The notes below the pieces were generated by a model that did not search any database, was not told the origin of the DNA, and saw nothing but the letters and a program-made list of their open reading frames with translations. From an uncultured bacterium (GTDB taxonomy: Bacteria > Armatimonadota > UBA5829), in contig CALJES010000013.1 in the NCBI GenBank assembly GCA_938074205.1, positions 1 through 64,000 of the forward strand: a DNA stretch of 64,000 nucleotides. The letters are read 5' to 3'. The position numbers and the translations under genes were made by a program. Position 1 is the first letter of the stretch; each line of letters starts with the position of its first letter. Positions 10,894-51,865 of the stretch are shown here, one piece after another.

Positions 10894-11457
10894 TTGTCGG
10901 AAGCGAAAAGAGTTTGTGCGCCCGTAAGCGAAAGTGATCTATGCGGACTTGTGGCGGGCGATAGGGTGTTGCTATCCGGAGTTATATACACCGCTCGGGA
11001 TGCCGCTCACGCGCGGCTGGTTGAGCTTATTCGTCAGGGCAAGAAGCTGCCCTTTGAACTGGATGGGCAAGTCCTCTACTACGCCGGGCCCACCCCTGCC
11101 CCGCCCGGCAGGGTAATCGGCTCGGTCGGCCCTACTACCGCATCAAGGATGGACCCCTACACGCCGGAGATTCTTAAGGCCGGCATCAAAGGTATGATCG
11201 GCAAGGGCGAAAGAAGCCCGGAGGTAGTAGATGCAATCGCCAAATACCGCGCGGTCTACTTCGCAGCCACGGGCGGAGCCGGCGCATTGCTTGCCAAGCG
11301 AGTTCTATCGTGCCAGATAGTCGCATTCGAAGACCTTGGCTGCGAGGCGATTCACAAACTCGAGGTAGCCGACTTCCCGCTGATTGTAATAAACGATTGC
11401 TTCGGCAACGATTTCTACCGCCAAATCCGATCCAAATACGAGATGGATTTACCCTGA
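10894..11457 (+). CDS. fumB: Fumarate hydratase class I, beta subunit
   Basis: This is the C-terminal (beta) half of class I fumarase. Its 187 residues start at TTG with GGTGGTAAG just upstream. GPTTASRMDPYTPEIL and MIGKGERSPEVVDAI near residues 75-115 and FAATGGAGALLAKRV near 125 are family signatures for substrate and interface contacts. It works as a heteromer with the preceding alpha subunit. Its 3-prime end overlaps the end of the convergent phosphatase gene by nine bases, with no terminator between. The symbol here follows two-subunit naming and does not mean E. coli FumB. Confidence 0.92.
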   Translation: MSEAKRVCAPVSESDLCGLVAGDRVLLSGVIYTARDAAHARLVELIRQGKKLPFELDGQVLYYAGPTPAPPGRVIGSVGPTTASRMDPYTPEILKAGIKGMIGKGERSPEVVDAIAKYRAVYFAATGGAGALLAKRVLSCQIVAFEDLGCEAIHKLEVADFPLIVINDCFGNDFYRQIRSKYEMDLP

Positions 11458-13278
11458 ACGCATCCTCCGCCGCGGAATGCGCCGTATTACCAGAAGTGCC
11501 GAATCGTCCGTGAGCCGGCCGCGGGAGTAGTGCGTAGCTGCCTGCATTATCGCATCCGCGATTTCATCTGCGCTTCTCGCACAAAAACTGTCCACGATGT
11601 CGACCAGCGATTCACAACCGAGCCTATTGGCGCCTTTGCCTGCGTCCGTTATGCCGTCGGTATAGAGAACCAGTATATCGCCAAGATCAAGCGATATTGT
11701 CTGACAATCATATTCGCATCCCGGCGTAAGCGCCAGTGCGCGACCCATCAGGTCCAAGGGAAAGGCTCGGCACTCGCACTGCGAGTAGTATATAGGCAGC
11801 TCATGCCCGCCGTTGCAGTAGGTGAATGTGGCGTCTTCGATATCCAGCACACCATATATTAAGGTAACAAACACTTCCTCCGGGGTGCACATGGTAAGGG
11901 CCTCATTCAGTCGCGAGAGAACAAGGTGTGGCGAGCTATTCTCCAAGGCATAAGCCCGGAGCATGTGTTTTGTCATGGCTGTGTAGATTGCAGAGTTGAG
12001 ACCTCTGCCGGAAACGTCCCCTATCACGACGCCTATCTTGCGAGCCGAAATGCGGAACATATCGTAGAAATCGCCGCCTATCAAAGCGCCCTCAGATGCC
12101 GCCTGGTAGCGCCTTGCGATCTCGAAACCGCGCACATCAGGCACGTCGTGCATAAGGAAGCTCTTCTGCAGCTGGACGGCAACCGCGTGCTCCTGCTCGT
12201 AGAGGGTCATAATCTCCTGTTCACGCTGGCTTGCCAACCCTGCCACCTGCGCGTATTTTTCGCGAGCCGCAACTTCTCGGGTGACATCAACCACCATAAC
12301 GGCAAGAGCTGCAGTGGAGCCGCTTTCCAGGGTAAGCTCCATAGGCACAGCAACGCCGCGCCAGTAGGTTGTCCCCTTTTTGAGCCCTTCATACCTGAAC
12401 TCGCTCACACGCACCGGACGGCCATCTCGCATCGCCCGTCGAAGCTTTTCCATCATGCCCGATTCTTCCGCGAGCGGTATCACGTCCTGTATCCGCGCCC
12501 CAACACGCCAGTTTAGGGAAGGCTGGAAGTATGTGAGGTAGATTTTGTTCCACGCCAGAAGTCTGAAATCCGAATCCAGGAGCAGGATACCGGCGGGCAT
12601 GTAGTCAATAAGCTGCTGCAGTGCCTGCTCGTGCTTCTTGACGGCCTCGAATGCCCGCTCAGCCCTCTCGATTGTCTGTTTGAGTTCCGTGATGTCTCTC
12701 AGGCAGAAAAAAAGCCCCAGAGGCACCCCTTCAGGGGAACAATATGGCACCCTGAACACGTGGTAGTGGCGAAGTCCCTTAACAGTGCGGCGAACCTCTT
12801 CGCAGGATGTCGGCTCTCCCTGGCGAATGGTCTCAAGGTCGGACCTCAGAAATACTTCTCCGTCTTTTCCCGGAAAGATCTCGGCATCGGTTCTGCCGAG
12901 GACGTCCCCCCCTTCAACTCCAAACCACTCGCAAAAGGCGGGGTTTACCATCTGATAGGCTCCGCGGACGGTTTTTACCGCCAGCAGATCCGGCGAAAGG
13001 CTCCAGATAGCCCTGAGCAGGCTAATCTCCTCTGAGTCCTGCAATCTGGAGATATCGGGTTCAGGCGCGGCGGAGTCGACGCCTTTAGGAAAAGCAGCAC
13101 TCACATCCGTGTTGGTAGGAATCGCAGGTTCCGAGGCGGCGGAGTCGACACCTTTAGGTGGGATATCTTCTCCAACCGAACACGGTCGAGGTTGGGACAC
13201 CTGTGGGGGAGTGAGCTTGTCGTCGGGGACGGTCGGCGGATTGCTGTTGCCTTCCTTGGATCTCGCTTGCTTCGCCAT
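11449..13278 (-). CDS. PAS-PAS-SpoIIE (PP2C-type) serine phosphatase
   Basis: The 609-residue protein has a disordered, proline-rich N-terminus with a repeated block (PPKGVDSAASEP, FPKGVDSAAPEP) at about 40-75. PAS domains lie at about 90-200 and 222-335, followed by a short helix linker and a SpoIIE/RsbU-type phosphatase at about 365-605. Metal-binding signatures GGDFYD (401-406), GDVSGRG (420-426) and a late TDGITDA are present. Such enzymes dephosphorylate anti-sigma-factor antagonists in partner-switching stress circuits. No partner genes lie nearby. I chose the ATG at 13278 because AGGAGG precedes it and because the promoter lies between it and the longer possible start. Confidence 0.9.
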   Translation of the reverse strand: MAKQARSKEGNSNPPTVPDDKLTPPQVSQPRPCSVGEDIPPKGVDSAASEPAIPTNTDVSAAFPKGVDSAAPEPDISRLQDSEEISLLRAIWSLSPDLLAVKTVRGAYQMVNPAFCEWFGVEGGDVLGRTDAEIFPGKDGEVFLRSDLETIRQGEPTSCEEVRRTVKGLRHYHVFRVPYCSPEGVPLGLFFCLRDITELKQTIERAERAFEAVKKHEQALQQLIDYMPAGILLLDSDFRLLAWNKIYLTYFQPSLNWRVGARIQDVIPLAEESGMMEKLRRAMRDGRPVRVSEFRYEGLKKGTTYWRGVAVPMELTLESGSTAALAVMVVDVTREVAAREKYAQVAGLASQREQEIMTLYEQEHAVAVQLQKSFLMHDVPDVRGFEIARRYQAASEGALIGGDFYDMFRISARKIGVVIGDVSGRGLNSAIYTAMTKHMLRAYALENSSPHLVLSRLNEALTMCTPEEVFVTLIYGVLDIEDATFTYCNGGHELPIYYSQCECRAFPLDLMGRALALTPGCEYDCQTISLDLGDILVLYTDGITDAGKGANRLGCESLVDIVDSFCARSADEIADAIMQAATHYSRGRLTDDSALLVIRRIPRRRMRSG

Positions 13279-13342
13279 AGTGCAGATGCACCTCCTCTCT
13301 AGGAGCAAGGTGCCACGGCCGACGTCCGGGGCATCTGTTGGT

Positions 13343-13371
13343 AAGATACCACCGACTACCCGCCAAGTCAA
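13343..13371 (-). promoter_or_regulatory. Sigma-70-type promoter of the PAS-SpoIIE gene
   Basis: Read on the minus strand, TTGACT (13366-13371) and TATCTT (13343-13348) are 17 bases apart. The start codon at 13278 would follow a leader of about 60 bases. The site overlaps the longest possible reading frame and so argues against the upstream start. Confidence 0.65.
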
Positions 13372-13497: not shown

Positions 13498-13526
13498 TTG
13501 ACCATGCCCAGCAATCAGGCTAGAAT
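13498..13526 (+). promoter_or_regulatory. Sigma-70-type promoter at the head of the redox operon
   Basis: TTGACC (13498-13503) and TAGAAT (13521-13526) are separated by 17 bases. The expected start is near 13533, almost 200 bases before the first confident gene. A second -10-like TATACT lies at 13667-13672 without a good -35 partner. The gap between the divergent promoters (13372-13497) holds nothing else that I recognise. Confidence 0.6.
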
Positions 13527-13538
13527 GCAATAGGAAAT

Positions 13539-13646
13539 ATGGAACCCGCAAGGCGCGGTTTGCGTCTTCAGTTCATGAGCCTGGATAGGCTTTTCTTTTT
13601 GCAGCGCTATTTTTGGCGATTCTACCAAACCGCCAACGATTTCTGA
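13539..13646 (+). CDS. Possible 35-aa small protein in the operon leader
   Basis: An ATG-initiated ORF begins about six bases after the predicted transcription start. It encodes a basic, aromatic-rich, amphipathic peptide (core LDRLFFLQRYFWRFYQ) that could bind membranes. TAGGA lies close upstream. No family is recognised and the length is too short for confidence. A terminator-like hairpin lies inside the ORF, so the region could instead be an untranslated attenuating leader. Confidence 0.3.
   Translation: MEPARRGLRLQFMSLDRLFFLQRYFWRFYQTANDF
13578..13600 (+). terminator. Terminator-like hairpin in the leader of the redox operon
   Basis: AGCCT (13578-13582) and AGGCT (13587-13591) pair around GGAT and are followed directly by a T-rich run to 13600. 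The stem is short at five base pairs. Placed between promoter and first gene, it could act as an attenuator or end a small RNA of about 65 bases. Confidence 0.35.
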
Positions 13647-13729
13647 TTGAACGCGCCGGACGAGGGTATACTAACTGGAAAACCAAGCAGAAACCTTGTG
13701 TTTCGGCGTCAAGCTTTTAGGAGTCTGAT

Positions 13730-13852
13730 ATGAAATCCACGTTACAATGGCTGCTGATCATTGCCCTGCTGATCGGAGGGCTGATTGTTGTAAACCACTT
13801 CGCAGGCAGCAGCTCGCCACAGCCCCCGGGATGCGCGTGCGGTCTGCGATGA
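13730..13852 (+). CDS. Small membrane-anchored protein with CxC motif, 40 aa
   Basis: A good Shine-Dalgarno site (TTAGGAG) stands seven bases before the ATG. The peptide has one hydrophobic segment (residues 5-22, LQWLLIIALLIGGLIVV), then a short polar tail ending GCACGLR. Two cysteines separated by one residue, just outside a membrane anchor and at the head of an operon of thioredoxin-fold and CcdA proteins, suggest a thiol-redox or metal-binding role. That role is inference. No known family comes to mind. It is followed 59 bases later by the first thioredoxin-like gene. Confidence 0.65.
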   Translation: MKSTLQWLLIIALLIGGLIVVNHFAGSSSPQPPGCACGLR

Positions 13853-13911
13853 ACTGTTCTTTTGCCGATGGCGCAAGCTGCAATGACAGGACTAATCTAA
13901 AAGGTGCTGGC

Positions 13912-14835
13912 ATGAAAATCTTTTGCGCGGTGGTAGTTTTGGCGCTGGTATCGGTTGCTCCAGCAACGGCCAACGAAACGCGTAGAACTGTTGCCTCTGT
14001 ATATCCCTCAATATGCGCGGGTGCCCTCAGGAACGCAATTCTTTCGGACCTCAAAGACGGCGTGATTGCCGAATGCGAAGATATCAAGATCACAGCCAAA
14101 GATATCGAGGACGAGATAGCAAAGTCGCCCGAACACAAGCGGGAACAGGTTCGAAAGTATCCGGTGCATGTGCTGGAACAGACCCTCATCAAGAGGCTGA
14201 TAGCTAAAGAAGCGAAGGAGTGGGCCAAAAAGAACGGCAAATCAGATACTGGCGATGCCGCAGTCAGCGCCTACCTGTCTTTTCAAGTGCCGGAGCCTAG
14301 CGTCACCGAGGAAGAGGCGCGCGAATTCTACGAAGAACACGCCGCCATGTTTGGCGAAATCTCATTCGAGCAGATCAAGGATGCCGTCATAAGCGTCGTC
14401 CGCGATGAGAAGGCCAGCGAAGCTCAAGACCGGTTCAAGCACGATGTGGGAAAGCGCCATGCGATCAGAGTCTCATCCTCGTGGATGAAAACTCAAGGCG
14501 ACAAGTGGTCTAAGAACCCAGTTGAGAAAGCCAGGCTTTCCGGCAAGCCAACCCTAGTGGTGTTCAGCGTTATCGGCTGCTGCGACAGAATGCTTCCTGT
14601 GGTCGAGCTGGTGCGTCACAGTTACGCGGACTCGCTAAATGTGGTTTTCGTTAACGTCAGCGAAGAGGAAGTTCTTTCCAGCATCTACGGTGTGCGCGGG
14701 ATTCCCGTAGAGATCTTCTACGATGCCAAAGGCAGGGAAGTCTTCCGCAGCAACCGATCAATGTCCATAAAGGATGTGGTTGATAAGTTAAGGGAAATGG
14801 GTGTTACCGTTGGTGGAGGAGGTGGCAGTGAGTAG
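13912..14835 (+). CDS. Secreted SurA_N-like/thioredoxin-fold hybrid with a CC active site
   Basis: The ATG at 13912 gives 307 residues with a signal peptide (MKIFCAVVVLALVSVAPATA). A helical region at about 50-195 resembles the SurA/PpiC-type peptide-binding chaperone fold. A thioredoxin-like domain follows at about 205-300 with VVFSVIGCCDRMLPVVE. The usual CxxC is reduced to adjacent cysteines (222-223). The cis-proline equivalent is present in GVRGIPVEIF. A paralogue with intact CRPC follows. The C-terminal GGGGGSE is encoded by the next gene's ribosome site, and the two genes overlap by eight bases. It is probably periplasmic and linked to the CcdA downstream. Its partner protein is unknown. 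Confidence 0.8.
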   Translation: MKIFCAVVVLALVSVAPATANETRRTVASVYPSICAGALRNAILSDLKDGVIAECEDIKITAKDIEDEIAKSPEHKREQVRKYPVHVLEQTLIKRLIAKEAKEWAKKNGKSDTGDAAVSAYLSFQVPEPSVTEEEAREFYEEHAAMFGEISFEQIKDAVISVVRDEKASEAQDRFKHDVGKRHAIRVSSSWMKTQGDKWSKNPVEKARLSGKPTLVVFSVIGCCDRMLPVVELVRHSYADSLNVVFVNVSEEEVLSSIYGVRGIPVEIFYDAKGREVFRSNRSMSIKDVVDKLREMGVTVGGGGGSE

Positions 14836-15754
14836 GTCAATGAGAATGGGTTTATTATTGGCTCTTGCGCTTGTGCTTGCGGCAGGCGGCTGGGCTCAGC
14901 CAAGTGGCAGCATGCAGCAAACTCTCAAGGAGGCGTATCCCGATCTGTCTTCCAGCCCCTTGGCCTCCGCCAAGCTTGTGACGCTGCCAAAGGGAATTGT
15001 CTTGCGATCCGGCGATCTGAAGTTTGCCCAGAAAGACCTGGACTCAGAAATTCGCAAATATCCCGAAGACCTTTGGCCGCAGCTTAAGAAAAACCTGCTC
15101 TTCGTGCTAGAAAACATCTTCACAAGGTCTGTGATAACTTGGGAGGCGCAGTCCTGGGCGAAGAACGAAAAAGACGCGCCCGCAGATGATAACGCGCTGA
15201 TACGGGCATATGTCGAGAGCCTGACAAAAGATGTGACGGTGACGGATGCTGAGCTAAAGACCTTCTTCGAAGGCAACCAGGACATATTGGGCGGAGTTTC
15301 ATTTGATCAGGTAAAGGAGCAGCTAAAGGATTACCTGCTGGAACAGAAGCGAGACGAGGTAATCCGAGCTCGTATAAGTAGTCTCAGCGACCGCTACGAG
15401 GTTGAGATAGACAAGGACTGGGCAGCTAAGCAGTATGCGGCCTCAATCGACAATCCGGTAGACAAGGCGCGCAAGTCTGGTATGCCATCGCTTGTAGACT
15501 TTGGTGCTGACGGCTGCCGTCCTTGCGACATGATGACGCCAATCCTGGAATCGCTGAAAAAGGAATACGAAGGTAAGCTGAATGTGATCTTCGTCCACGT
15601 GCGCAAGGAGCAGATTCTTGCGGCGCGGTACGGGGTGCAGTCGATACCTGTTCAGATCTTCTTTGATAAGGACGGCAAGGAAGTCTTCCGGCACGTGGGA
15701 TTCTTTCCAAAGGACCAGATAACAGCCAAACTGGCGGAAATGGGGGTTAAGTGA
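14828..15754 (+). CDS. Secreted SurA_N-like/thioredoxin hybrid with CRPC active site
   Basis: The GTG at 14828 follows GGAGGAGG by five bases and gives 308 residues with a signal peptide (hydrophobic core GLLLALALVLAAGG, cleavage near AQ). The architecture matches the preceding gene: a helical SurA-like region at about 50-190, then a thioredoxin domain with FGADGCRPCDMM (cysteines near 229 and 232) and GVQSIPVQIFFDKDGKEVF. This member has a complete redox-active CxxC, so it could exchange electrons with CcdA while its paralogue binds substrate. TlpA/ResA-type proteins are the closest functional analogy, but the chaperone-like N-terminus is unusual for them. Confidence 0.85.
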   Translation: MSRSMRMGLLLALALVLAAGGWAQPSGSMQQTLKEAYPDLSSSPLASAKLVTLPKGIVLRSGDLKFAQKDLDSEIRKYPEDLWPQLKKNLLFVLENIFTRSVITWEAQSWAKNEKDAPADDNALIRAYVESLTKDVTVTDAELKTFFEGNQDILGGVSFDQVKEQLKDYLLEQKRDEVIRARISSLSDRYEVEIDKDWAAKQYAASIDNPVDKARKSGMPSLVDFGADGCRPCDMMTPILESLKKEYEGKLNVIFVHVRKEQILAARYGVQSIPVQIFFDKDGKEVFRHVGFFPKDQITAKLAEMGVK

Positions 15755-15755
15755 T

Positions 15756-16454
15756 TTGGAGCAACTCTGGATAAGCCTAACCAAGGCAGTAGAGGGTTCG
15801 GCATTAATAGCGCTTTCCGCGTCATTCGTCTGGGGTGTTCTGAGTATTCTCCTTAGCCCCTGCCATCTGGCAAGCATACCACTGATCGTCGGTTTCATCA
15901 GCGAGCAAGGCATAGTGACTACACGCAGAGCTTTCTGGATCTCCGCACTGTTTGCATTCGGGATACTTTTAACCATCGCGCTGATTGGCGCTGTGACGGC
16001 AAGTATGGGCAGGATAATGGGAGACGTCGGACGATACGGCAACTACGCGGTCGCGGTGATATTCTTTGTAGTTGGCCTGCACCTGCTGGACATAATCCCG
16101 ATGCCCTTTTCTGGCCCCGGAGGGGTAGAGATGAAGCGTCGCGGATTGCTCGCCGCATTCATATTGGGGTTGATATTCGGAATAGCGCTTGGGCCTTGTA
16201 CGTTTGCGTATATGGCCCCAATGCTTGCAATCAGCTTTAAGGCCGCCGCCACAAATCTAGTCTACGGCATTGTGCTTTTGCTTATGTACGGTGTTGGACA
16301 CTGTTCGGTGATTGTGGCTGCTGGCACCTCGACCGAAGCGGTAGAGAGGTACCTGCGCTGGAATGAAAGCTCTCGCGGCGCTAATATTGTCAAGAAAGTG
16401 TGCGGAGTGCTGGTAATATTGGGAGGAGTCTACCTGATCTATACAGCGAGGTAA
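15756..16454 (+). CDS. ccdA: CcdA/DsbD-type transmembrane thiol-disulfide transporter
   Basis: The 232-residue protein with about six hydrophobic segments starts at TTG one base after the preceding stop. Two conserved membrane-embedded cysteine sites of CcdA are visible, LLSPCHLASIP (Cys36) and ALGPCTFAYMAP (Cys148). These proteins pass reducing power from cytoplasmic thioredoxin across the membrane to periplasmic thioredoxin-like partners. The two secreted thioredoxin hybrids encoded just upstream are the obvious partners here. No cytochrome c maturation genes are nearby, so a role in c-type cytochrome assembly is not supported by context. Confidence 0.9.
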   Translation: MEQLWISLTKAVEGSALIALSASFVWGVLSILLSPCHLASIPLIVGFISEQGIVTTRRAFWISALFAFGILLTIALIGAVTASMGRIMGDVGRYGNYAVAVIFFVVGLHLLDIIPMPFSGPGGVEMKRRGLLAAFILGLIFGIALGPCTFAYMAPMLAISFKAAATNLVYGIVLLLMYGVGHCSVIVAAGTSTEAVERYLRWNESSRGANIVKKVCGVLVILGGVYLIYTAR

Positions 16455-16499
16455 CCAGCTGTTAATAAAACGGCGAGTGCAAATTTGGAGGCGGGTTCT

Positions 16500-17336
16500 A
16501 TGATGGAAGTGGCACAGGTCAAACAGATGTGGGAATCGATGGTTGCAGCGCTCGAACTTTCGCGCTTACCGGTGGGGGTGAGGTTTATTTCGGAGAATGA
16601 TCCCCTGCCCGAAGACGTAGAAAAGCTCGACAATCACAGGTATTGCCAGGCTCTGATGAAGGCTAGCAGAGGCCGAAACGTGCTGTTGGACGGCGAGGGG
16701 ATTTCTTGTCCTGCGGCTGCGGCGGCGTTCGGATTTCGGTCTCTCCCGGAGCAACTGAAAAGCGGTAAGGGGCTCGTGGGTTTCGGCATAGTCTCCGACG
16801 AAGCTGTCGGGGCAAAGATGTTTGAGGGAATGACTACCCTGTCGCCAGGTAAGATCTGTGGATTACACCTTTTCCCGCTGAATCAAGCCGAATACGTGCC
16901 GGACATTATAGTTGTTGAAGCTGAGGCCGAGAAGCTGATGTGGATTGCCCTTGCCTACCTGCACGCCCGAGGAGGAGAACGAGTCAGGTCTTCCACCGCG
17001 ATACTTCAGGCGACCTGCGTTGACGCCACAATCATACCTTACGTCGAGCAGCGGCTGAACTTAAGCTATGGCTGCTACGGATGCAGGGACGCGACAGACC
17101 TCGGACCAGATGAAGGCGTTCTTGGGTTCCCGGCATCTGTTCTGCCGGCTGTGGTTGAGCACTTGCAGTTTCTGAGCGAAAAAGCTATCCCGAACTCCCG
17201 ACAGAAACGAGCGTTTGCCACTCTCAAGAAGGCGACGTGTCCAAGCGCTTGTTCGGAAGACGACAACGCAACTCGGAACATCGATGTCGACTGTGCAGCG
17301 GAGACCGAGTCTGCTGAAACTAAAAAGGAGAGCTAG
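16500..17336 (+). CDS. DUF169 family protein
   Basis: The 278-residue cytoplasmic protein resembles the DUF169 (COG2043) family in PVGVRFISENDPLPEDVEKL near the N-terminus, in the RYCQALMKASRG and ISCPAAAAAFGF cysteine motifs, and in LSYGCYGCRDATDLGPDE near residue 195. The family is widespread in anaerobes and archaea but has no established function. Its conserved cysteines suggest a metal or cluster. The C-terminal tail adds more cysteines (ATCPSACSEDD). GGAGG lies eight bases before the ATG at 16500. A TTG 15 bases upstream is less likely because it precedes the ribosome site. Confidence 0.85.
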   Translation: MMEVAQVKQMWESMVAALELSRLPVGVRFISENDPLPEDVEKLDNHRYCQALMKASRGRNVLLDGEGISCPAAAAAFGFRSLPEQLKSGKGLVGFGIVSDEAVGAKMFEGMTTLSPGKICGLHLFPLNQAEYVPDIIVVEAEAEKLMWIALAYLHARGGERVRSSTAILQATCVDATIIPYVEQRLNLSYGCYGCRDATDLGPDEGVLGFPASVLPAVVEHLQFLSEKAIPNSRQKRAFATLKKATCPSACSEDDNATRNIDVDCAAETESAETKKES

Positions 17337-17338
17337 GG

Positions 17339-17806
17339 GTGCTGGCCTTCAATGTGATAGGCCTGTGTATCCTGGTGGTTTGCTTTGCCCTTGATCGACG
17401 CAAGACGGTCCGCTCCGTGCGTCGGGGACTGATGATGTTTTGGAAGATCGTCCCGGAAATGTCAGTCGTGCTAATCCTGATCAGCATCGCCTTAGCAGTT
17501 CTGACGCCAGCGCAGCTCAGACAATGGCTATCCGTCGACACTCCCGCGCATTTCGCAACAGCGTTGGTTGTCGGTTCGATTGCTCTCATCCCAGGGTTCA
17601 TTGCTTTCCCTCTGGCAGGGGTTCTGCTGAGAAACGGCGCATCGGTATCGCTTGTAGCGGGCTTCGTCACGACGCTTCTGATGGTAGGAGTGGTCACGTT
17701 ACCGATGGAAGCCAGATACTTCGGTTGGCGAACGGCGCTTATTCGCAACGGCTTGTCGTTTATCGGAGCCGCGGCAATTGCGCTTGCGATGGGGAGGCTG
17801 CTGTGA
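17339..17806 (+). CDS. Half-size COG0701-like permease, subunit A
   Basis: The 155-residue membrane protein has four hydrophobic segments. GSIALIPGFIAFPLAGVLLRNGAS near residue 80 matches the core of the permease family that includes ArsP-like and Cu/Zn-type efflux permeases (PF03773 relatives), which normally have 300-350 residues with two such halves. Here the halves are separate genes. It begins at GTG two bases after DUF169, with AAGGAG upstream, and overlaps the second half by four bases (GTGA). The substrate is unknown. Confidence 0.78.
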   Translation: MLAFNVIGLCILVVCFALDRRKTVRSVRRGLMMFWKIVPEMSVVLILISIALAVLTPAQLRQWLSVDTPAHFATALVVGSIALIPGFIAFPLAGVLLRNGASVSLVAGFVTTLLMVGVVTLPMEARYFGWRTALIRNGLSFIGAAAIALAMGRLL

Positions 17807-18336
17807 AGACCAACCGCAGGAACGCGATCAACCTTGGGTTGACGGGTATTTTCTTGCTTTTCTGCGCGTGGAGTGTCTGGCTTGCCCACAACGACTTCGC
17901 ACGTAGAGCAGCAAGCGGGTATCTGGGTTTCCTAAAGGAAATGCTCTCCGTCATGCCTATGATGTTCGTACTCATAGGCATATTCGATGTGTGGGTACCG
18001 CAGGATGTTGTCGAGCGGCACGTTGGGGAGAAAGCGGGTCCGATTGCCGTGGTTTGGATGATCCTGCTAGCGATGCTTCAGATCGGGCCGCTGTACGGCG
18101 CATTTCCAGTGGCGGCCGCACTTTGGAAAAAGGGCTGTGCAGCCAGGTATGTGTTCATATATCTCGGCGCATTCTCGGTAATGAAGCTTCCGATGCTCAG
18201 CTTTGAGATAACATTTTTGGGTTGGAAATTCTCGCTCGTCAGACTTATGCTTACGCTGCCGGTGTTCATCGCTATTGGCTATGTAATGGGGCGCTCGCAG
18301 ACCTGCGCTAATATGAAAAACGCAACGATGGGGTGA
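17803..18336 (+). CDS. Half-size COG0701-like permease, subunit B
   Basis: The GTG start at 17803 overlaps the stop of the first half, with GGGGAGG upstream, and gives 177 residues with about five hydrophobic segments. QIGPLYGAFPVAAALWKKGCAA near residue 100 is the counterpart of the PGFIAFPLAG motif in subunit A, with a conserved proline and a KxG/C stretch. The pair probably forms one heteromeric channel or efflux unit. A cysteine lies in the pore-side motif (KKGCAARY) and another near the C-terminus (SQTCANMK). Confidence 0.78.
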   Translation: MKTNRRNAINLGLTGIFLLFCAWSVWLAHNDFARRAASGYLGFLKEMLSVMPMMFVLIGIFDVWVPQDVVERHVGEKAGPIAVVWMILLAMLQIGPLYGAFPVAAALWKKGCAARYVFIYLGAFSVMKLPMLSFEITFLGWKFSLVRLMLTLPVFIAIGYVMGRSQTCANMKNATMG

Positions 18337-18344
18337 GAGGACTG

Positions 18345-18620
18345 ATGGCAATAATGACTCGTTTGGCTGTGTTGGCCCTATCGGCAGTTCTTCTTTTCTG
18401 CCTTGGCTCCGCAAATGCCTCAGAGCAACCGAATGCCAAGTATGGGACTGATCCTTATAATGGCGCTGTTACTTGGCTACGTCGTGCCGGCTATGCAGTT
18501 CGAGTCCTACATCTAACCGTTCCTGATCATCATGCGTATTGCGCTGTCATTGATAGGCTTGTCGCTTGCTCTTTACCTTACCGGAACGCCGGTGGGAATG
18601 GACTATATGAACACCAGTAA
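18345..18620 (+). other. Ambiguous short ORF with signal-like start, 91 aa
   Basis: From the ATG at 18345 (GAGAGGA upstream) the first 30 residues form a convincing signal peptide or membrane anchor (RLAVLALSAVLLFCLG, then ANASEQ). After about residue 45 the reading becomes unlike a protein. In the frame one base over, hydrophobic segments appear instead (GLILIMALLLGYVVPAMQ near 18445, and another after 18532). Either this is a short secreted protein, or a small membrane gene has been broken by a frameshift and a stop. I cannot tell which. Confidence 0.3.
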
Positions 18621-18669
18621 TCGGTCTTCGAAGATATCGAAAATGCCTAGAACCGCTAGGAGGTATTAG
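18532..18669 (+). CDS. Possible 45-aa small membrane protein before the ferredoxin
   Basis: The ORF starts at ATG 18532, has one hydrophobic segment (MRIALSLIGLSLALYLTGTP), then a basic tail (SKMPRTARRY). The ferredoxin ribosome site AGGAGG lies within its last codons, and its stop is three bases before the ferredoxin start, as expected for a coupled upstream gene. It shares its frame with the hydrophobic stretch near 18445, but a TAA at 18514 separates them. Confidence 0.4.
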   Translation: MRIALSLIGLSLALYLTGTPVGMDYMNTSNRSSKISKMPRTARRY

Positions 18670-18672
18670 CAC

Positions 18673-18954
18673 GTGAAAGTCAGAAAATACATGGGAATAG
18701 ACAGGGAGAAGATAGCTTGGTATCCGACTATCGACCCCGAAGCTTGCACGGGCTGTGGGGCTTGCGCAGAGTTCTGCCCTAACGACGTTTTCGAGCTCGT
18801 TGATGGGGTAATGACGGTAGCAAACCCTCTTAACTGTGTGCCCGGGTGCGATAAGTGCGCGGGAGAGTGTCCGGCATCGGCGATAATGTTTCCATCCAGG
18901 GAAAACCTGCTGATGCAGATTGAGCAACTGCGCCAGTCCCAGGGAAATCGCTGA
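18673..18954 (+). CDS. 2[4Fe-4S] ferredoxin
   Basis: The 93-residue small iron-sulfur protein starts at GTG, nine bases after AGGAGG. It has two clusters of cysteines, CTGCGACAEFCP near residue 25 and CVPGCDKCAGECP near 56. The second has the CxxxCxxC spacing found in ferredoxins of some anaerobes. A short helical extension (ENLLMQIEQLRQSQGNR) ends the chain. It probably supplies or accepts low-potential electrons. Its place in the redox/permease operon suggests a role beside DUF169 or the thiol relay, but this is inference. Confidence 0.9.
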   Translation: MKVRKYMGIDREKIAWYPTIDPEACTGCGACAEFCPNDVFELVDGVMTVANPLNCVPGCDKCAGECPASAIMFPSRENLLMQIEQLRQSQGNR

Positions 18955-18971
18955 AAAAAGGAGGAGCAAGA

Positions 18972-19844
18972 ATGTTCAGCTCGGTATTACTGGCCACCGA
19001 CCTTTCGCCTGCTTCCGACGCCGTAGTGGATTACGTGAAGACGCTTCGTCCGATCGGCTGTCGCAAAATAGTGCTGACTTACGTGATATACGTAAAGCAC
19101 CTGGTTGGGCTAAGCGAGGCTTTGCTGGAAGAAGCAAAGCCCAAACTAGACGCCCAGAAGACGGCGCTCGAAAAACATGGATTCGAGGTGTCGGTAGAAA
19201 CCCCAGTTGGTATCCCCGGCGTCCAGATTACGCGTTTGGCGGTTGAAACCGGCTGTGAGGCAATAGTGATTGGCTCGCACGGACACACTCTTGCGCGCGA
19301 AATAGCGTTGGGCGGTGTTGCCACAGATGTGGTGCACCGGGCAGAAGTCCCTGTCCTGGTCGTAAGGCTCGATATCCTCGAGGAGGGGGAGCAGCGGTGT
19401 TGTCGAGTGAGCTCCACCGACATCCTCTCGCACGTGCTGCATGCGACAGACTTTTCAGACAATGCTGAACGCGCATTCCGGTATGTAGAGGAGTTTGCCA
19501 AAATTGGCTGCAAGAAGGTAACGCTAATGCACGTCCAGGATATCTCGCGCATTCGCCCTCATTTGGAGCACAAGCTGCAGGAGTTCAATGAAATAGACAG
19601 GGCACGACTTGAGCGCATGGCCTCCCGCCTTAGAGAAGTTGGAGTCGAAGAAATCGATCTGCAGATTCCATATGGCGCTCCAGCAAAGGAGATAGTTGAG
19701 TATGTACGAAAGACCTGTCCCTCGCTTGTTGTGATGGGCGTTCATGGGAGAGGGTTCATCGCCGACATCTTCGCCGGCAGCGTAGCACACAATGTGGTGC
19801 GCCTCTCCCACTCGCCGGTGCTATTGGTGCCGCCCGTTAGCTGA
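18972..19844 (+). CDS. Tandem universal stress protein (UspA-UspA)
   Basis: The 290-residue protein contains two Usp domains of about 140 residues each. Each begins with a strand leading to ATDLSPASDAV or ATDFSDNAERAF. The second domain has the full ATP-binding pattern G-x2-G-x9-G-S (MGVHGRGFIADIFAGSV). The first has GSHGHTLAREIALGG, with glycine where serine is usual, so only one site may bind nucleotide well. AAAAGGAGGAG precedes the ATG. It is the last gene of the redox operon and is followed by a strong inverted repeat. Confidence 0.92.
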   Translation: MFSSVLLATDLSPASDAVVDYVKTLRPIGCRKIVLTYVIYVKHLVGLSEALLEEAKPKLDAQKTALEKHGFEVSVETPVGIPGVQITRLAVETGCEAIVIGSHGHTLAREIALGGVATDVVHRAEVPVLVVRLDILEEGEQRCCRVSSTDILSHVLHATDFSDNAERAFRYVEEFAKIGCKKVTLMHVQDISRIRPHLEHKLQEFNEIDRARLERMASRLREVGVEEIDLQIPYGAPAKEIVEYVRKTCPSLVVMGVHGRGFIADIFAGSVAHNVVRLSHSPVLLVPPVS

Positions 19845-19848
19845 TCCT

Positions 19849-19879
19849 GGGAGGGCGCACGCTAAACCCGCCCTCCCAC
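19849..19879 (+). terminator. Strong inverted repeat ending the redox operon
   Basis: TGGGAGGGCG (19849-19858) pairs perfectly with CGCCCTCCCA (19870-19879) across an 11-base loop, starting four bases after the UspA stop. The 10-bp G/C-rich stem makes it a likely terminator or mRNA end, although no T run follows. The remaining 194 bases to the next gene hold only a TTGACA at 19915 with a poorly spaced -10. Confidence 0.6.
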
Positions 19880-45478: not shown

Positions 45479-45529
45479 TTGCTGGCAGAAGCAAGAGATC
45501 TTCTGCAGCATGCCGAAAACCGAATTGCC

Positions 45530-47863
45530 ATGGAAACCCTTACACTTGACATTCCTGTCCTTTGGCCGAACTATCTTGCAGACTGCGATCAGTGCACTGA
45601 GCGGTTGAGGGAAACCCTGCAAAGCCTCGACGGCATGATCAGCGTGCAAGTGGATGCCGACAAGCAGACCGTAGAGGTGACATACGCTAAGGACCTCCTC
45701 AACTTCGAGACTATCAAGCAGGTCGCCCTGGATCTTGGAATCACCCTAGCAGAAAAGTTCAAGCACGAAAGGTTGCCCATCGCCGGGCTCGACTGCCCCG
45801 ATTGCGCCGAGAATTTGGAGAAAGCCCTATCGCGAGTACCAGGGGTGAGTTGGGTTTCGGTGAGCTTCGCCGCATCAATCTTGTTGGTCGAGTTCGAACC
45901 TAGCATAACCAACCTGGACACGATACTCAAGACAATACGCCGGCTGGGGTACGATGTGCGCCTGCCGGAAGAGGCTTTAAGCGCCGATAGAGCGGACAGA
46001 ATCCCCCTGAGGGAACGGCTGCGCATACTGCTTACCGCGCTCTCCGGCTTGCTGCTAGCCGCAGGGCTGGGGGCGGAATACCTTTCGCAGAGCGTTTCGG
46101 TGAGCAAGCTGTTGCTAATCTGCTCTGCTGCAGCAGGCGGCATCTACCCAGCGCGCAGGGCATATTACTCCCTCAAAGCTCGCATACTTGACACAAACTT
46201 TCTGGTTACCATCGCGGCGGCAGGGGCGATATGGCTGGGGGACTATGTTGAGGCAGCCGCGGTTGTATTCCTGTTCTCTTTAGGCTCAGCGCTTGAGGCG
46301 ATTACCGCCGACAGGGCTCGTAGATCGCTTCGTTCCCTAATAGAATCTTTTCCACGGTCGGTTCTGGTCCAACGAAACGGCAAGATCCAGGAGACACCCG
46401 CCGTCGAGGTAGAGGTTGGTGAGCTTGTTTTGGTCAAGCCGGGTGAGAGAATTGTTCTGGACGGAATTGTCGTGGGTGGGGAGTCCACCGTCAACGAAGC
46501 GCCCATAACCGGCGAATCAACGCCCAAGAGCAAAAGCAAAGGTGATCCTGTCTACGCAGGGTCTATAAACGGCGAAGGCGCCCTCGAAGTCCGCGCTACT
46601 TCCAGGGCAGAGGACAGCACCGTTGCCAGAATAGTGCACATGGTTGAAGAAGCTCAGGCGCAAAAAGCGCCTTCCCAGCGCTTCAGCGAGACCGTTGGCC
46701 GCTATTACACGCCCGTGGTTATCGCAACCGCAGCAATTGTCGCCGTCTTAGGAGCAGCATACGCAGGTTCTTATGAAGACTGGCTGCGAAGGGCACTGAC
46801 ACTGTTGGTCGTGGCTTGCCCGTGCGCGTTGGTAGTTTCGGCGCCTGTGGCAGTCGTCTGCGCATTGACAAGTGCCGCTAAGCGGGGAGTGCTGATAAAA
46901 GGCGGTCTTCACCTGGAGACGCTCGGCCAGGTATCTACGGTCGCTTTCGATAAGACAGGCACCTTAACGCTCGGCAAGCCTCAGGTCCGCGAAGTGAAAG
47001 CTGCGAACGAATATGAGCCGGCAGATGTGGTAGCAGCAGCTGCCGCCGTGGAGTCACGATCTGAGCATCCCTTGGCTGATGCGATCGTCGAGTACGCTCA
47101 GACCCTGCAGGTCCCGAAAATGCACGTTTCATTCTTCGAGGCCCTGCCCGGCAAGGGAGCCCGCGCGATAGTGGACGGTGGGCTTTATTATGTTGGCAAC
47201 GATCGGTTGATAGCAGAATTAGGCTTCGAATTACCCGCAGTAGATACCTCGGCTGATCCTGAGCAGGCCAGATGCACGGTGGTCTATGTGGCAAATGAAA
47301 GCGCCATTATGGGAGCCATAGCGCTGACCGATGCGGTAAGGGACTGCGCCGCCGCCGTAATCGCCGAACTGCGTAGCAACGGAATAGAAAGAGTCGTAAT
47401 GCTCACAGGAGACAATCCTCAGGTTGCCCATGCCGTTGCCCGCGAAGTCGGCATAAGCGAGTTCTACGCAGAGCTTCTTCCGCAGGACAAGGTCAAGTTG
47501 GTTAAGAAGCTGGCTTCGAAATCAGGGAAAGTTGCTATGGTCGGCGACGGCTTCAACGACGCACCCGCCTTGGCGGCAGCGCATGTGGGTATAGCGATGG
47601 GAGGACTAGGCAGCCACGCTTCCATCGAAATCGCTGATGTGGTGCTGATGGCGGACGAAATAATGATGCTCCCATACGCCATTCGCCTCAGCCGCGCAGC
47701 CAAAACAATAATCGCCCAAAACTTGGCATTTGCCATAGGGGCAGCGGTCCTCCTGGTTTGGGGCGCGCTAACGCAGCATATCAACCTCGCGACTGGCGTA
47801 CTCGGACACGAAGCCAGCGCGCTCTTGGTTATCGCAAACGGCATGAGAATTCTAAAAAGGTGA
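45530..47863 (+). CDS. P1B-type heavy-metal ATPase (Zn/Cd/Pb class)
   Basis: The ATG at 45530 gives 777 residues. A TTG directly after the preceding stop would add 17 with no ribosome site. Two N-terminal heavy-metal domains carry CDQC (19-22) and CPDC (89-92). The membrane CPC motif occurs in ACPCALVVSAPVAV near residue 430. DKTGT follows near 473, the SEHPLAD histidine-proline motif near 512, and GDGFNDAPALA near 670. The last membrane helix has HEASALLVIANGMR, close to the HEGGTLLV signature of Zn/Cd/Pb exporters. The protein exports divalent soft metals from the cytoplasm. No metal-responsive regulator gene is adjacent. Confidence 0.92.
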   Translation: METLTLDIPVLWPNYLADCDQCTERLRETLQSLDGMISVQVDADKQTVEVTYAKDLLNFETIKQVALDLGITLAEKFKHERLPIAGLDCPDCAENLEKALSRVPGVSWVSVSFAASILLVEFEPSITNLDTILKTIRRLGYDVRLPEEALSADRADRIPLRERLRILLTALSGLLLAAGLGAEYLSQSVSVSKLLLICSAAAGGIYPARRAYYSLKARILDTNFLVTIAAAGAIWLGDYVEAAAVVFLFSLGSALEAITADRARRSLRSLIESFPRSVLVQRNGKIQETPAVEVEVGELVLVKPGERIVLDGIVVGGESTVNEAPITGESTPKSKSKGDPVYAGSINGEGALEVRATSRAEDSTVARIVHMVEEAQAQKAPSQRFSETVGRYYTPVVIATAAIVAVLGAAYAGSYEDWLRRALTLLVVACPCALVVSAPVAVVCALTSAAKRGVLIKGGLHLETLGQVSTVAFDKTGTLTLGKPQVREVKAANEYEPADVVAAAAAVESRSEHPLADAIVEYAQTLQVPKMHVSFFEALPGKGARAIVDGGLYYVGNDRLIAELGFELPAVDTSADPEQARCTVVYVANESAIMGAIALTDAVRDCAAAVIAELRSNGIERVVMLTGDNPQVAHAVAREVGISEFYAELLPQDKVKLVKKLASKSGKVAMVGDGFNDAPALAAAHVGIAMGGLGSHASIEIADVVLMADEIMMLPYAIRLSRAAKTIIAQNLAFAIGAAVLLVWGALTQHINLATGVLGHEASALLVIANGMRILKR

Positions 47864-49658: not shown

Positions 49659-51260
49659 GTGAGCACAAGCGTAAGGCAAGTTACCAAGTCCAGCGAGGTC
49701 GACGAACGCAATGCAGCCCTTGTGGCAAATGCCGCGGCTATAGCTGCGCTTGCATCAGCTATCGAGGGCACATTGGGTCCCAAGGGGCTTGACTGCATGC
49801 TCGTTGACCGATTCGGCGACACAACTGTAACAAACGACGGCGCCACCATCCTCGATAGGATAGACACCAACCATCCTGCTGCTCGGATGCTCATAAAAAC
49901 AGCTCGAGCGCAAGAAGAAGCTGTCGGTGACGGCACCACTACCACCACCATTCTTGCCAGCGCTATGATCAACGAGGGCGCATCTCACGTAGCCCGCGGG
50001 GTGCCGGTTGTAAAGGTCATCGAAGGCGTGCGGCTTGGGGTTGCGAAAGCTCTGGAGTTCATAGAATCTCACGCCGAGCGGATCGAAGGCGTAGATGATG
50101 ACATACTGCTACAGGTTGCGTCAATAGCTGCTCGCGGACACGAGGACATAGCCGATCTCATAGTTCAGGCAGCACGTCTTGTGGGCGAAGACACCCTGCG
50201 GGACCCCGGTTTTTCTCTAGCCGATACCGTGTTGGCAAAAGAGGGTGCTGAGAATGAGGTCTTTTGCGGGATTGTCCTCGATAAGCAGCGACTGAACCGC
50301 CAGATGCCTCGCTTGGTCGAAGATGCGAAAGTCTTGATCGTGGACGATGCGCTCGAACCTCCACAGATAGACGATGATGCGTTGGGCACGGAGTCTGGGT
50401 TTGCCCAACACGTTGCTTACCAGGAAGAGTTCAGACGCAATATCGAAAAAGTTATCGAAATGGGCGTAACGTTCGTTGCTGCCGCCAAAGGAATTGACCC
50501 TATTGCCGAAGAGCTTTTTACCGACGCTGGGGTTTTTGCGGTGCGCAGGCTGGGATCCAAAGACATATCTCGCCTGGCAGAAGTGACCGGCGGCCGAACG
50601 ATCAAGCGCTCGGGTCTGTCGAAACCGCCCGAGGAACTGGAACGTTTTCTGGGGCGCTGCGAGCGGGTATATGAAGATGAGAGATTGGATCACATACGCG
50701 TAATCGGCAAGTCGGATGCGCGCGCTGCCGCCGTAGTTGTAGGTGCCTCAACTAGGGAAGTGAAGGACGAGCGCGAACGCATTGCGCGCGACGCGGCAGG
50801 CGCTGTACAGGAAGCAGTGAGATCGGGCATAGTGCCCGGAGGCGGCGCGATTGAGATCGCCGCCGCCAGATACGTCCAGGACTTCCGAGAAAGCGTCAGA
50901 GGCATGGCCGCCTACGGAGTGGAAGCAGTAGTGGCAGCGCTTAAGCGGCCGCTGGCTCAGATCGTTGCTAATGCGGGTTTCAATCCGCTTGAAAAAGTCG
51001 AGGAAGTGATGCTAGCTCAGGCGCAGCAGGGTAAGTGCTCGCTTGGGGTGGACTGCGACTCCGGCTTAGTCTCAGATATGCTCGAACTGGGAGTAGTAGA
51101 CCCGGCGGGCGTCAAGCTATACGCAATCCGAGCTGCAGCGGAGCTTGCGGAAGCAATTTTGCGTATAAACACTGTAATAAGAAAGCGCGATGAAGCCTCT
51201 GAACAGTCTTCGCCACGCGCGGGTGAAGGTCAAGAGGAGGTGACAAGCGACAAAAGATGA
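49659..51260 (+). CDS. Archaeal-type (group II/III) chaperonin in a bacterium
   Basis: The 533-residue chaperonin resembles archaeal thermosome subunits, not GroEL. GPKGLDCMLVDRFGDTTVTN near residue 42 and NDGATILDRID come first. Then EAVGDGTTTTTILASAMINE near 87 carries the ATP site, IVPGGGAIEIAAARYV lies near 388, and LGVVDPAGVKLYAIRAAAEL near 477. Known bacterial examples (group III chaperonins, first found in Carboxydothermus and relatives) lie beside dnaK-operon genes. Here the gene overlaps grpE by four bases. It starts at GTG. The charged C-terminal tail differs from the GGM tails of GroEL. These proteins form a folding chamber with a built-in lid, so no GroES is needed. Confidence 0.93.
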   Translation: MSTSVRQVTKSSEVDERNAALVANAAAIAALASAIEGTLGPKGLDCMLVDRFGDTTVTNDGATILDRIDTNHPAARMLIKTARAQEEAVGDGTTTTTILASAMINEGASHVARGVPVVKVIEGVRLGVAKALEFIESHAERIEGVDDDILLQVASIAARGHEDIADLIVQAARLVGEDTLRDPGFSLADTVLAKEGAENEVFCGIVLDKQRLNRQMPRLVEDAKVLIVDDALEPPQIDDDALGTESGFAQHVAYQEEFRRNIEKVIEMGVTFVAAAKGIDPIAEELFTDAGVFAVRRLGSKDISRLAEVTGGRTIKRSGLSKPPEELERFLGRCERVYEDERLDHIRVIGKSDARAAAVVVGASTREVKDERERIARDAAGAVQEAVRSGIVPGGGAIEIAAARYVQDFRESVRGMAAYGVEAVVAALKRPLAQIVANAGFNPLEKVEEVMLAQAQQGKCSLGVDCDSGLVSDMLELGVVDPAGVKLYAIRAAAELAEAILRINTVIRKRDEASEQSSPRAGEGQEEVTSDKR

Positions 51261-51865
51261 GTCCGAAAAGAAAAAAGAATGAACAGCCTGACTTCGAGCA
51301 GACTGAAGATAGGAACGAATCTATGGCTATTGAAGAATCCGACCAGCAGGCAGTAGACGTTCGAGAAGAACTCGAACCTGATCATCTGACAGAACACATA
51401 GCGGCGCTTGAATCGGAGCTGGAACAGCTCAGGCGCGACGTAGACGAGGCCCGAGATAGGTATCTCAGGGTGCTGGCTGACTTCGACAATTACAAGAAGC
51501 GCCAGCGCGAGGAAACATCTCGACAGATCAACCTTGCCAGAGAAGAGCTGATTTTAAAGATCCTGCCTATCGTCGACAATTTCCAGCGCGCCTTGCAAGC
51601 AGCAGAAGCCCAGCACAGCTACGAATCTCTTGTGGAGGGTGTATCACTGACGCTAAGGCAGATCCAGGACATGCTCGAAAAAGAAGGGGTGAAACCCATA
51701 GCGGCTGTGGGTGAGGTTTTCAATCCCGAGCTGCACGAAGCCCTTATGCGCGAAGAGACCGACGAGTATCCAGAAAACACCGTTATAGACGAGCTGGAGA
51801 AGGGCTACACTATGAATGGCAAGGTGCTTCGGCCTGCTCGTGTCAAAGTGGCGACTTCGAGCTAG
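51257..51865 (+). CDS. grpE: GrpE nucleotide-exchange factor
   Basis: The 202-residue protein has the GrpE layout: an acidic disordered N-terminus, a long coiled coil (about 45-110, with YLRVLADFDNYKKRQREETS), and a C-terminal beta domain (about 145-200; GEVFNPELHEALMREETDEY and ENTVIDELEKGYTMNGKVLR). It removes ADP from DnaK. It is coupled to the chaperonin gene by an ATGA overlap, so both are made from one mRNA. No dnaK or dnaJ follows; the next gene is convergent and overlaps the stop by four bases. Confidence 0.95.
   Translation: MSPKRKKNEQPDFEQTEDRNESMAIEESDQQAVDVREELEPDHLTEHIAALESELEQLRRDVDEARDRYLRVLADFDNYKKRQREETSRQINLAREELILKILPIVDNFQRALQAAEAQHSYESLVEGVSLTLRQIQDMLEKEGVKPIAAVGEVFNPELHEALMREETDEYPENTVIDELEKGYTMNGKVLRPARVKVATSS

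Follow-up and report, generated by a model that had tools for sequence, protein, structure and literature searches.

The window analysed here is a stretch of 64,000 nucleotides from contig CALJES010000013.1 of an uncultured bacterium of the phylum Armatimonadota (assembly GCA_938074205.1; genome G000, 3.02 Mb, 97.9% complete). It contains an operon of thiol-redox, permease and ferredoxin genes at 13730–19844, which an earlier note, made from the sequence alone, described as about ten compact genes of unknown purpose. The compact layout is real: the gene calls, based on open reading frames (ORFs), place densely packed, co-directional genes on one strand, most neighbours being a few bases apart or overlapping by as little (Table 1). 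Domain models agree with the assignments of CcdA, DUF169, a ferredoxin and a double universal stress protein (Usp), and the small membrane peptide with a CxC tail is present. The inverted repeat to which the set was said to extend does follow usp, and it lacks a T-run.

Table 1. Features of the operon and its immediate flanks in the window
Feature	Position	Strand	Basis
ArsR-operator-like palindrome TTTGGCGATTCTACCAAA	13612–13629		motif match to relatives' ArsR promoters
o1, 40-residue peptide with a single transmembrane segment and CxC tail	13730–13852	+	sequence reading
o2, secreted thioredoxin-domain protein, degenerate active site	13912–14835	+	PF00085, 22.3 bits
o3, secreted helical-domain/thioredoxin protein, CRPC; alternative GTG start at 14828	14840–15754	+	PF00085, 51.9 bits
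CcdA-type transmembrane thiol:disulfide carrier (DsbD_TM)	15756–16454	+	PF02683, 41.8 bits (cut-off 27.1)
DUF169 protein, cytosolic, conserved Cys 49, 70, 173, 192 and 195	16500–17336	+	PF02596, 180.6 bits (cut-off 27)
p1, half permease 1, homologous to the N-half of ArsP_1	17339–17806	+	ArsP_1, 13.4 bits
p2, half permease 2, 4-bp overlap with p1	17803–18336	+	ArsP_1, 27.0 bits
Scar of a deleted TolC–MFP–RND pump cassette; recognisable RND piece at 18439–18600 with in-frame TAA	18333–18669	+	tblastn
2[4Fe-4S] ferredoxin	18673–18954	+	Fer4 models
Double Usp	18972–19844	+	PF00582, 139.6 bits, two stretches
10-bp inverted repeat TGGGAGGGCG/CGCCCTCCCA, arms 19848–19857 and 19869–19878, after usp, no T-run	19848–19878		read directly

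Gene neighbourhoods were surveyed in 291 armatimonadotal genomes, with arsenic resistance (ars) markers scored within 6 kb of a gene; conservation outside the phylum was examined through four plasmid or megaplasmid records. Islands with ArsR, ACR3, ArsM, ArsC and ArsE repeatedly hold relatives of the window's CcdA, thioredoxin, DUF169, ferredoxin and Usp, and the contigs bearing such islands often end inside them. Within the CcdA subfamily (at least 41% identity), ArsR, ACR3, ArsM or ArsC lies within the scored distance at 37 of 46 loci, the window excluded; several of the loci without a marker are on short contigs. A thioredoxin gene stands beside CcdA at 45 of 47 subfamily loci, the window included. 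When the markers were checked on representatives from the relatives, curated models accepted ArsM (354.8 against a cut-off of 263), ACR3 (465.6 against 282.8) and the ArsE-family thioredoxin (108.8 against 62). The ArsC representatives scored 105–108 against arsenate reductase models, below the cut-off of 157.6, and ArsC is therefore the weakest of the four marker labels. At three distant CcdA/DsbD loci (L179, L186 and L188), none of ArsR, ACR3, ArsM and ArsC was seen; further distant CcdA loci do adjoin ArsR and ArsE. DUF169, CcdA and a thioredoxin are linked in five genomes from four families (G000, G002, G289, G249 and G255).

The search for conserved neighbourhoods, which the earlier note had proposed, yielded, besides this linkage, a single operon in the genome of a sister species (G002, island locus L016). 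One row there comprises a permease, ArsE, a lipoprotein thioredoxin (TrxL), a small peptide (o1b), CcdA, DUF169, p1, p2, a cytochrome, a porin, ArsC, ACR3, x123 (described below), ferredoxin and CMD. In G000, contig C1 (locus L185) carries ArsR, a full-length ArsP-type permease, ArsE, TrxL, an octaheme cytochrome with eight CxxCH motifs, Porin_O_P, ArsC, ACR3, x123 and CMD. The genes missing from C1 relative to the sister row, namely those for the small peptide, CcdA, DUF169, p1, p2 and the ferredoxin, are the ones held by the window. Of the C1 markers, ACR3 (461 against 282.8), ArsE (112.7 against 62) and the ArsR/SmtB metalloregulator (85.5 against 55) exceed their curated cut-offs, as does the C1 permease for ArsP_1 (229.5 against 32.3). 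The ACR3 gene on C1 is the only one in G000, and ArsM is on another contig, C2.

The region upstream of the operon offers a possible second connection between the two loci. ArsR promoters of the relatives have in common the palindrome ATTTGG-N8-CCAAAT, which encloses the −10 box, and the window holds TTTGG-N8-CCAAA 100 bp 5′ of the first gene. This site was seen by eye after the motif was known from the relatives and before counts were run. Exact matches occur at four places in the whole genome, with a chance expectation of 0.04 in the window, and a position weight matrix built from seven relatives' sites ranks the palindrome first in the 64 kb. A k-mer comparison of the window and C1 upstream regions returned one common 10-mer, unconvincing alone; the motif taken from the relatives gave the stronger signal. 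The operator-like site provides moderate support for a shared ArsR control of both loci. The near-consensus promoter that had been proposed at 13498–13526 did not stand out from chance, with 5 such promoters found against 4.5 ± 2.3 in shuffled sequence. Between that promoter and the ArsR-like site lies a terminator-like stem with a T-rich tail (13577–13592), where a short transcript begun at 13498 may terminate. A divergent PAS/SpoIIE-type phosphatase gene (11449–13371) has the operator-like site in the same intergenic region, and the site could serve the phosphatase gene instead.

The redox core of the operon retains the residues expected to matter for thiol exchange in CcdA and o3. CcdA/DsbD proteins pass electrons from cytosolic thioredoxin to envelope thioredoxins, and the two CcdA cysteines, Cys36 (LSPCH) and Cys148 (LGPCT), are present in every one of 57 sequences. 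Orthologues of o3, which is well above the PF00085 cut-off of 23.5, stand before CcdA in many ars islands. The predicted structure of o3 (predicted local distance difference test (pLDDT) 80.5) has an N-terminal helical module fused to a thioredoxin fold, and a fold search with this model gave thioredoxins only, among the matches listed. The o2 protein scores slightly below the same cut-off, and its active site has lost two residues, so that CxxC has become a vicinal CC, whereas the other 11 aligned sequences retain CxxC. The two proteins had been described as SurA-like/thioredoxin hybrids. Secreted thioredoxin-domain proteins they are, but support for the SurA label is weak, with a SurA_N or rotamase/PpiC domain above the Pfam cut-off in 0 of 12 family members and a weak Rotamase_2 match in 1 of 12, and the two are not equivalent, given the loss of CxxC in o2. 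An o1-like peptide of 37 residues (40% identity over 25 residues) precedes CcdA in the sister genome (L016:1111–1224). We rejected o1 as a widespread small gene, the search having found a relative in the sister genome only; it could be either a small gene in its own right or what is left of a thioredoxin anchor.

DUF169 belongs to a family that also occurs in methanogens, and the window protein matches PF02596/COG2043 over its full length. Its close clade (at least about 44% identity) comprises seven loci, all with island genes; at four of them, strict ars genes lie no more than 6 kb away. The remaining three are a locus with p1 and a porin (G064), one with an efflux pump of the resistance–nodulation–division (RND) type and an x123–ferredoxin pair about 6.6 kb off (G025), and the window's own operon. 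In the distant DUF169 clade, ars or island genes were found at 0 of 8 loci, one of which (L198) was scanned without re-detecting DUF169. No solved-structure relative was found, and the predicted model was poor (pLDDT 46.5, from a two-row alignment). DUF169 is also listed in published tables of selenium-associated genes and of nitrate fitness in Desulfovibrio, for proteins that may lie outside the present clade. In G027, a DUF169 remnant consisting of the C-terminal tail only lies between the ferredoxin and p1 (L014:8817–8981).

The two half permeases of the earlier note are present and overlap, although each alone falls below the ArsP_1 (PF03773) cut-off of 32.3 that relatives elsewhere pass. 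Each aligns to the N-terminal half of ArsP_1, and p1 and p2 are 25.6% identical over 78 residues (E = 2e-7). Neither p1 nor p2 has the CSC motif that the full-length permeases of L132 and C1 carry. Close relatives of p1 (at least 49% identity) are patchy in the phylum, occurring in G002, G013, G026, G027 and G064 among the surveyed genomes. Beyond Armatimonadota, an adjacent, overlapping p1/p2 pair was also found in Bacillota and Thermococcus, the records being of Peptoclostridium, Acetoanaerobium, Niallia and Thermococcus; four halves from these pairs scored 30.7, 54.8, 39.0 and 43.5 against ArsP_1, three of the four passing. The regulators beside these outside pairs are Crp-like, PadR-like or other helix-turn-helix proteins, and an ArsR/SmtB gene is nearby in Thermococcus. 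Because the pair recurs elsewhere with other neighbours, it is a widespread two-gene unit in its own right and not peculiar to the window operon. In G026 (L039:9304–9882), residues 1–116 of p1 are fused to a different tail immediately ahead of the porin, and p2 and most of the cytochrome have apparently been deleted.

What had been read as a small membrane ORF after p2 is instead a scar left by the deletion of an RND efflux pump. The recognisable piece, 54 codons long and interrupted by a single in-frame stop, is 87% identical to residues 865–918 of the G025 RND pump (tblastn, E = 6e-27), and G025 has an intact set of TolC, membrane fusion protein (MFP) and RND genes between DUF169 and the x123–ferredoxin pair (ACR_tran 811 bits, HlyD, OEP). 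The ferredoxin has two four-cysteine cluster motifs whose eight cysteines are conserved in 9–10 of 10 sequences. Its relatives in ars islands adjoin x123, a cysteine-rich protein of 123 residues whose gene in G000 is the one on C1. No Pfam or NCBIfam model matched x123 (L185:2403–2774 and many ars loci), which may resemble the N-terminal domain of HdrA. An orthologue of Usp that is 78% identical stands beside ACR3 in G008 and G014. A conserved protein of about 110 residues, with CGF near its start and CCSGC near its end, also recurs in ars islands (L132:10746–11072, L130:10162–10509 and others); it has no NCBIfam match.

Taken together, the ars-island linkage and the complementary C1 locus suggest, with a probability of roughly 0.8 judged from sequence and gene order, that the operon belongs to an ars system, as the auxiliary redox half of an armatimonadotal ars island that is split over two places in the genome. 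The purpose that the earlier note left blank would thus be arsenic resistance, served by an operon that is not self-contained, and the metalloid part of its suggestion of a soft metal or metalloid substrate has good support and can be narrowed to arsenic. The envelope thiol relay that it envisaged is plausible in light of the invariant cysteines and the adjoining thioredoxin genes, and we consider such a step by CcdA and the envelope thioredoxins somewhat probable.

We propose that the C1-encoded ArsR would control both loci in response to arsenicals. Cytosolic thioredoxin or ArsE would supply electrons to CcdA, which would hand them to extracytoplasmic thioredoxin domains, those of o3 from the window and of the lipoprotein thioredoxin from C1, and envelope thiols would thereby be held reduced against trivalent arsenicals. 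Arsenic-damaged thiols, pump thiols and cytochrome thiols are the candidate targets of the envelope thioredoxins. This electron transfer is the most likely step of the scheme, because CcdA keeps both redox cysteines and adjoins secreted thioredoxins. More tentatively, and by analogy with ArsP, p1 and p2 may form a heteromeric ArsP-like permease that exports an organic or trivalent arsenical. The ferredoxin and x123, paired by gene order, could be a cytosolic electron source, and an RND efflux pump, now lost, would formerly have been part of the operon. A role for DUF169 in the ars system, in which it might draw on the ferredoxin or bind an arsenical through its conserved cysteines, is speculative and on balance unlikely. 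The same doubt attaches to the fuller proposal that the DUF169 clade is a cytosolic cysteine- or Fe–S-dependent arsenical-processing protein that draws on ferredoxin and x123 and works alongside the CcdA thiol relay and the two-gene ArsP-like exporter; this would constitute an undescribed route encoded by two co-regulated, complementary operons in G000.

Several observations weigh against assigning the operon to arsenic resistance. It lacks ArsR, ACR3, ArsC and ArsM, the known ars genes of G000 being on other contigs, and no arsenite efflux pump (ArsB/ACR3) is encoded in it. The operator-like site has poor −10 and −35 boxes on the + strand, so that it might act in either direction, and the C1 ArsR site differs from it at one arm base. 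The window's DUF169 is closer to that of G025 (67–70%) than to that of the sister species (about 60%), and its p1 and p2 are closer to those of G027 (85% and about 80%, compared with about 60% for the sister species), G025 and G027 being of different families within the class; the block may therefore be a separately acquired or recombined copy and not a simple relocation. The permease pair is also found outside ars islands, in Peptoclostridium, Acetoanaerobium, Niallia and G013. The note had named as a ground for rejection that each gene might have a better-known partner elsewhere, and this is half the case: it holds for the permease pair, whereas the remaining genes all indicate a single system.

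The permease pair also bears on whether the operon instead answers a different soft metal or stress (Cu, Zn, Se, Hg or low oxygen), the arsenic linkage arising because islands gather resistance genes. The pair lies by a heavy-metal P-type ATPase in Thermococcus and near selenium–molybdenum cofactor genes in Peptoclostridium, and the models nearest to the full-length permease, which it matches below cut-off, are those for SO_0444 Cu/Zn efflux and for SaoE; a literature search on SaoE found nothing relevant. Yet ACR3, ArsM and ArsE pass arsenic-specific models and recur beside CcdA and thioredoxin across many families of the phylum, and we regard a different substrate as very unlikely. It is improbable, too, that CcdA and the secreted thioredoxins mainly mature the island's octaheme cytochrome c by reducing apocytochrome CxxCH thiols, the arsenic link then running through a cytochrome–porin electron-transfer module. 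CcdA and ResA-type thioredoxins are established cytochrome c maturation factors, and the octaheme cytochrome and Porin_O_P stand beside DUF169 or p1/p2 in G002, G027 and G249, as well as being present on C1; however, only five of the CcdA/thioredoxin ars loci examined have the cytochrome (L016, L131, L159, L180 and L185), compared with the near-constant thioredoxin genes, and the window operon has none. That the CcdA-like protein is itself an ArsG-type arsenical efflux permease and not an electron carrier seems no more probable: its best NCBIfam match is ArsG (NF040495) and ArsE is on C1, as in the ArsEFG system, but the 56.8 bits are far under the equivalog cut-off of 200, and the invariant cysteines and adjacent secreted thioredoxins speak for a carrier. 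The RND scar, the broken CxxC of o2, the DUF169 remnant in G027 and the p1 fusion in G026 indicate that such islands erode, from which one might take the operon for a decaying, functionless relic. With o3, CcdA, DUF169, p1, p2, the ferredoxin and Usp all intact, and with motif cysteines and tight spacing kept, we consider this most improbable.

Two further features of the window lie apart from the operon, both read from the ORF list. A predicted heavy-metal P-type ATPase, bearing two metal-binding repeats at its N terminus, is encoded at 45479–47863, in a separate neighbourhood, and a thermosome-like chaperonin gene (group II/III type, in a bacterium) at 49659–51865 is directly followed by a grpE-like gene.

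If the assignment to arsenic resistance is correct, DUF169, a family of unknown function, gains a concrete and testable link to arsenic, and the ars islands of a little-studied phylum acquire as members a ferredoxin, a double Usp and an ArsP-like permease encoded by two genes. The two complementary loci would permit a clean test, with one regulator, two operons and one detoxification system.

The association of CcdA and thioredoxin genes with ars operons was published earlier (PMC2963123), so this core association is already known. The published operons have the same redox components, and ACR3 and ArsP-type permeases accompany them both there and in the relatives surveyed here. Unlike those operons, the window operon lacks ArsR, ArsC and ACR3, with other ars genes on another contig, and it adds the helical-domain/thioredoxin fusion, DUF169, the split permease, the ferredoxin and Usp. 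The earlier note's statement that no described system has this gene set thus fails for the CcdA/thioredoxin core and stands for the remainder: the membership of DUF169, the split permease, the ferredoxin and Usp in such islands, and the division over two loci, appear to be new on the basis of gene content. Among the papers searched, none connects arsenic with DUF169, the ferredoxin or the two-gene permease. A second point of comparison is ArsEFG, a system for organoarsenicals (Chen, Zhang & Rosen 2019, cited in PMC9144182). It resembles the present one in combining an ArsE-family protein, here on C1, with a CcdA-superfamily membrane protein that best matches ArsG; it differs in that the window's CcdA scores well short of ArsG and is accompanied by secreted thioredoxins. 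The analogy for export by p1/p2 is the methylarsenite efflux permease ArsP (COG0701, PF03773; PMC6205960), with whose N-half both proteins align and whose Pfam cut-off relatives of both pass; unlike ArsP, they are encoded by two genes, each for about 155–180 residues, score below that cut-off and lack the CSC motif of the C1 permease. Compared with DUF169/COG2043 as a whole, the window protein is a full-length member, yet it lies in a clade (at least 44% identity) that in Armatimonadota is tied to ars-island genes.

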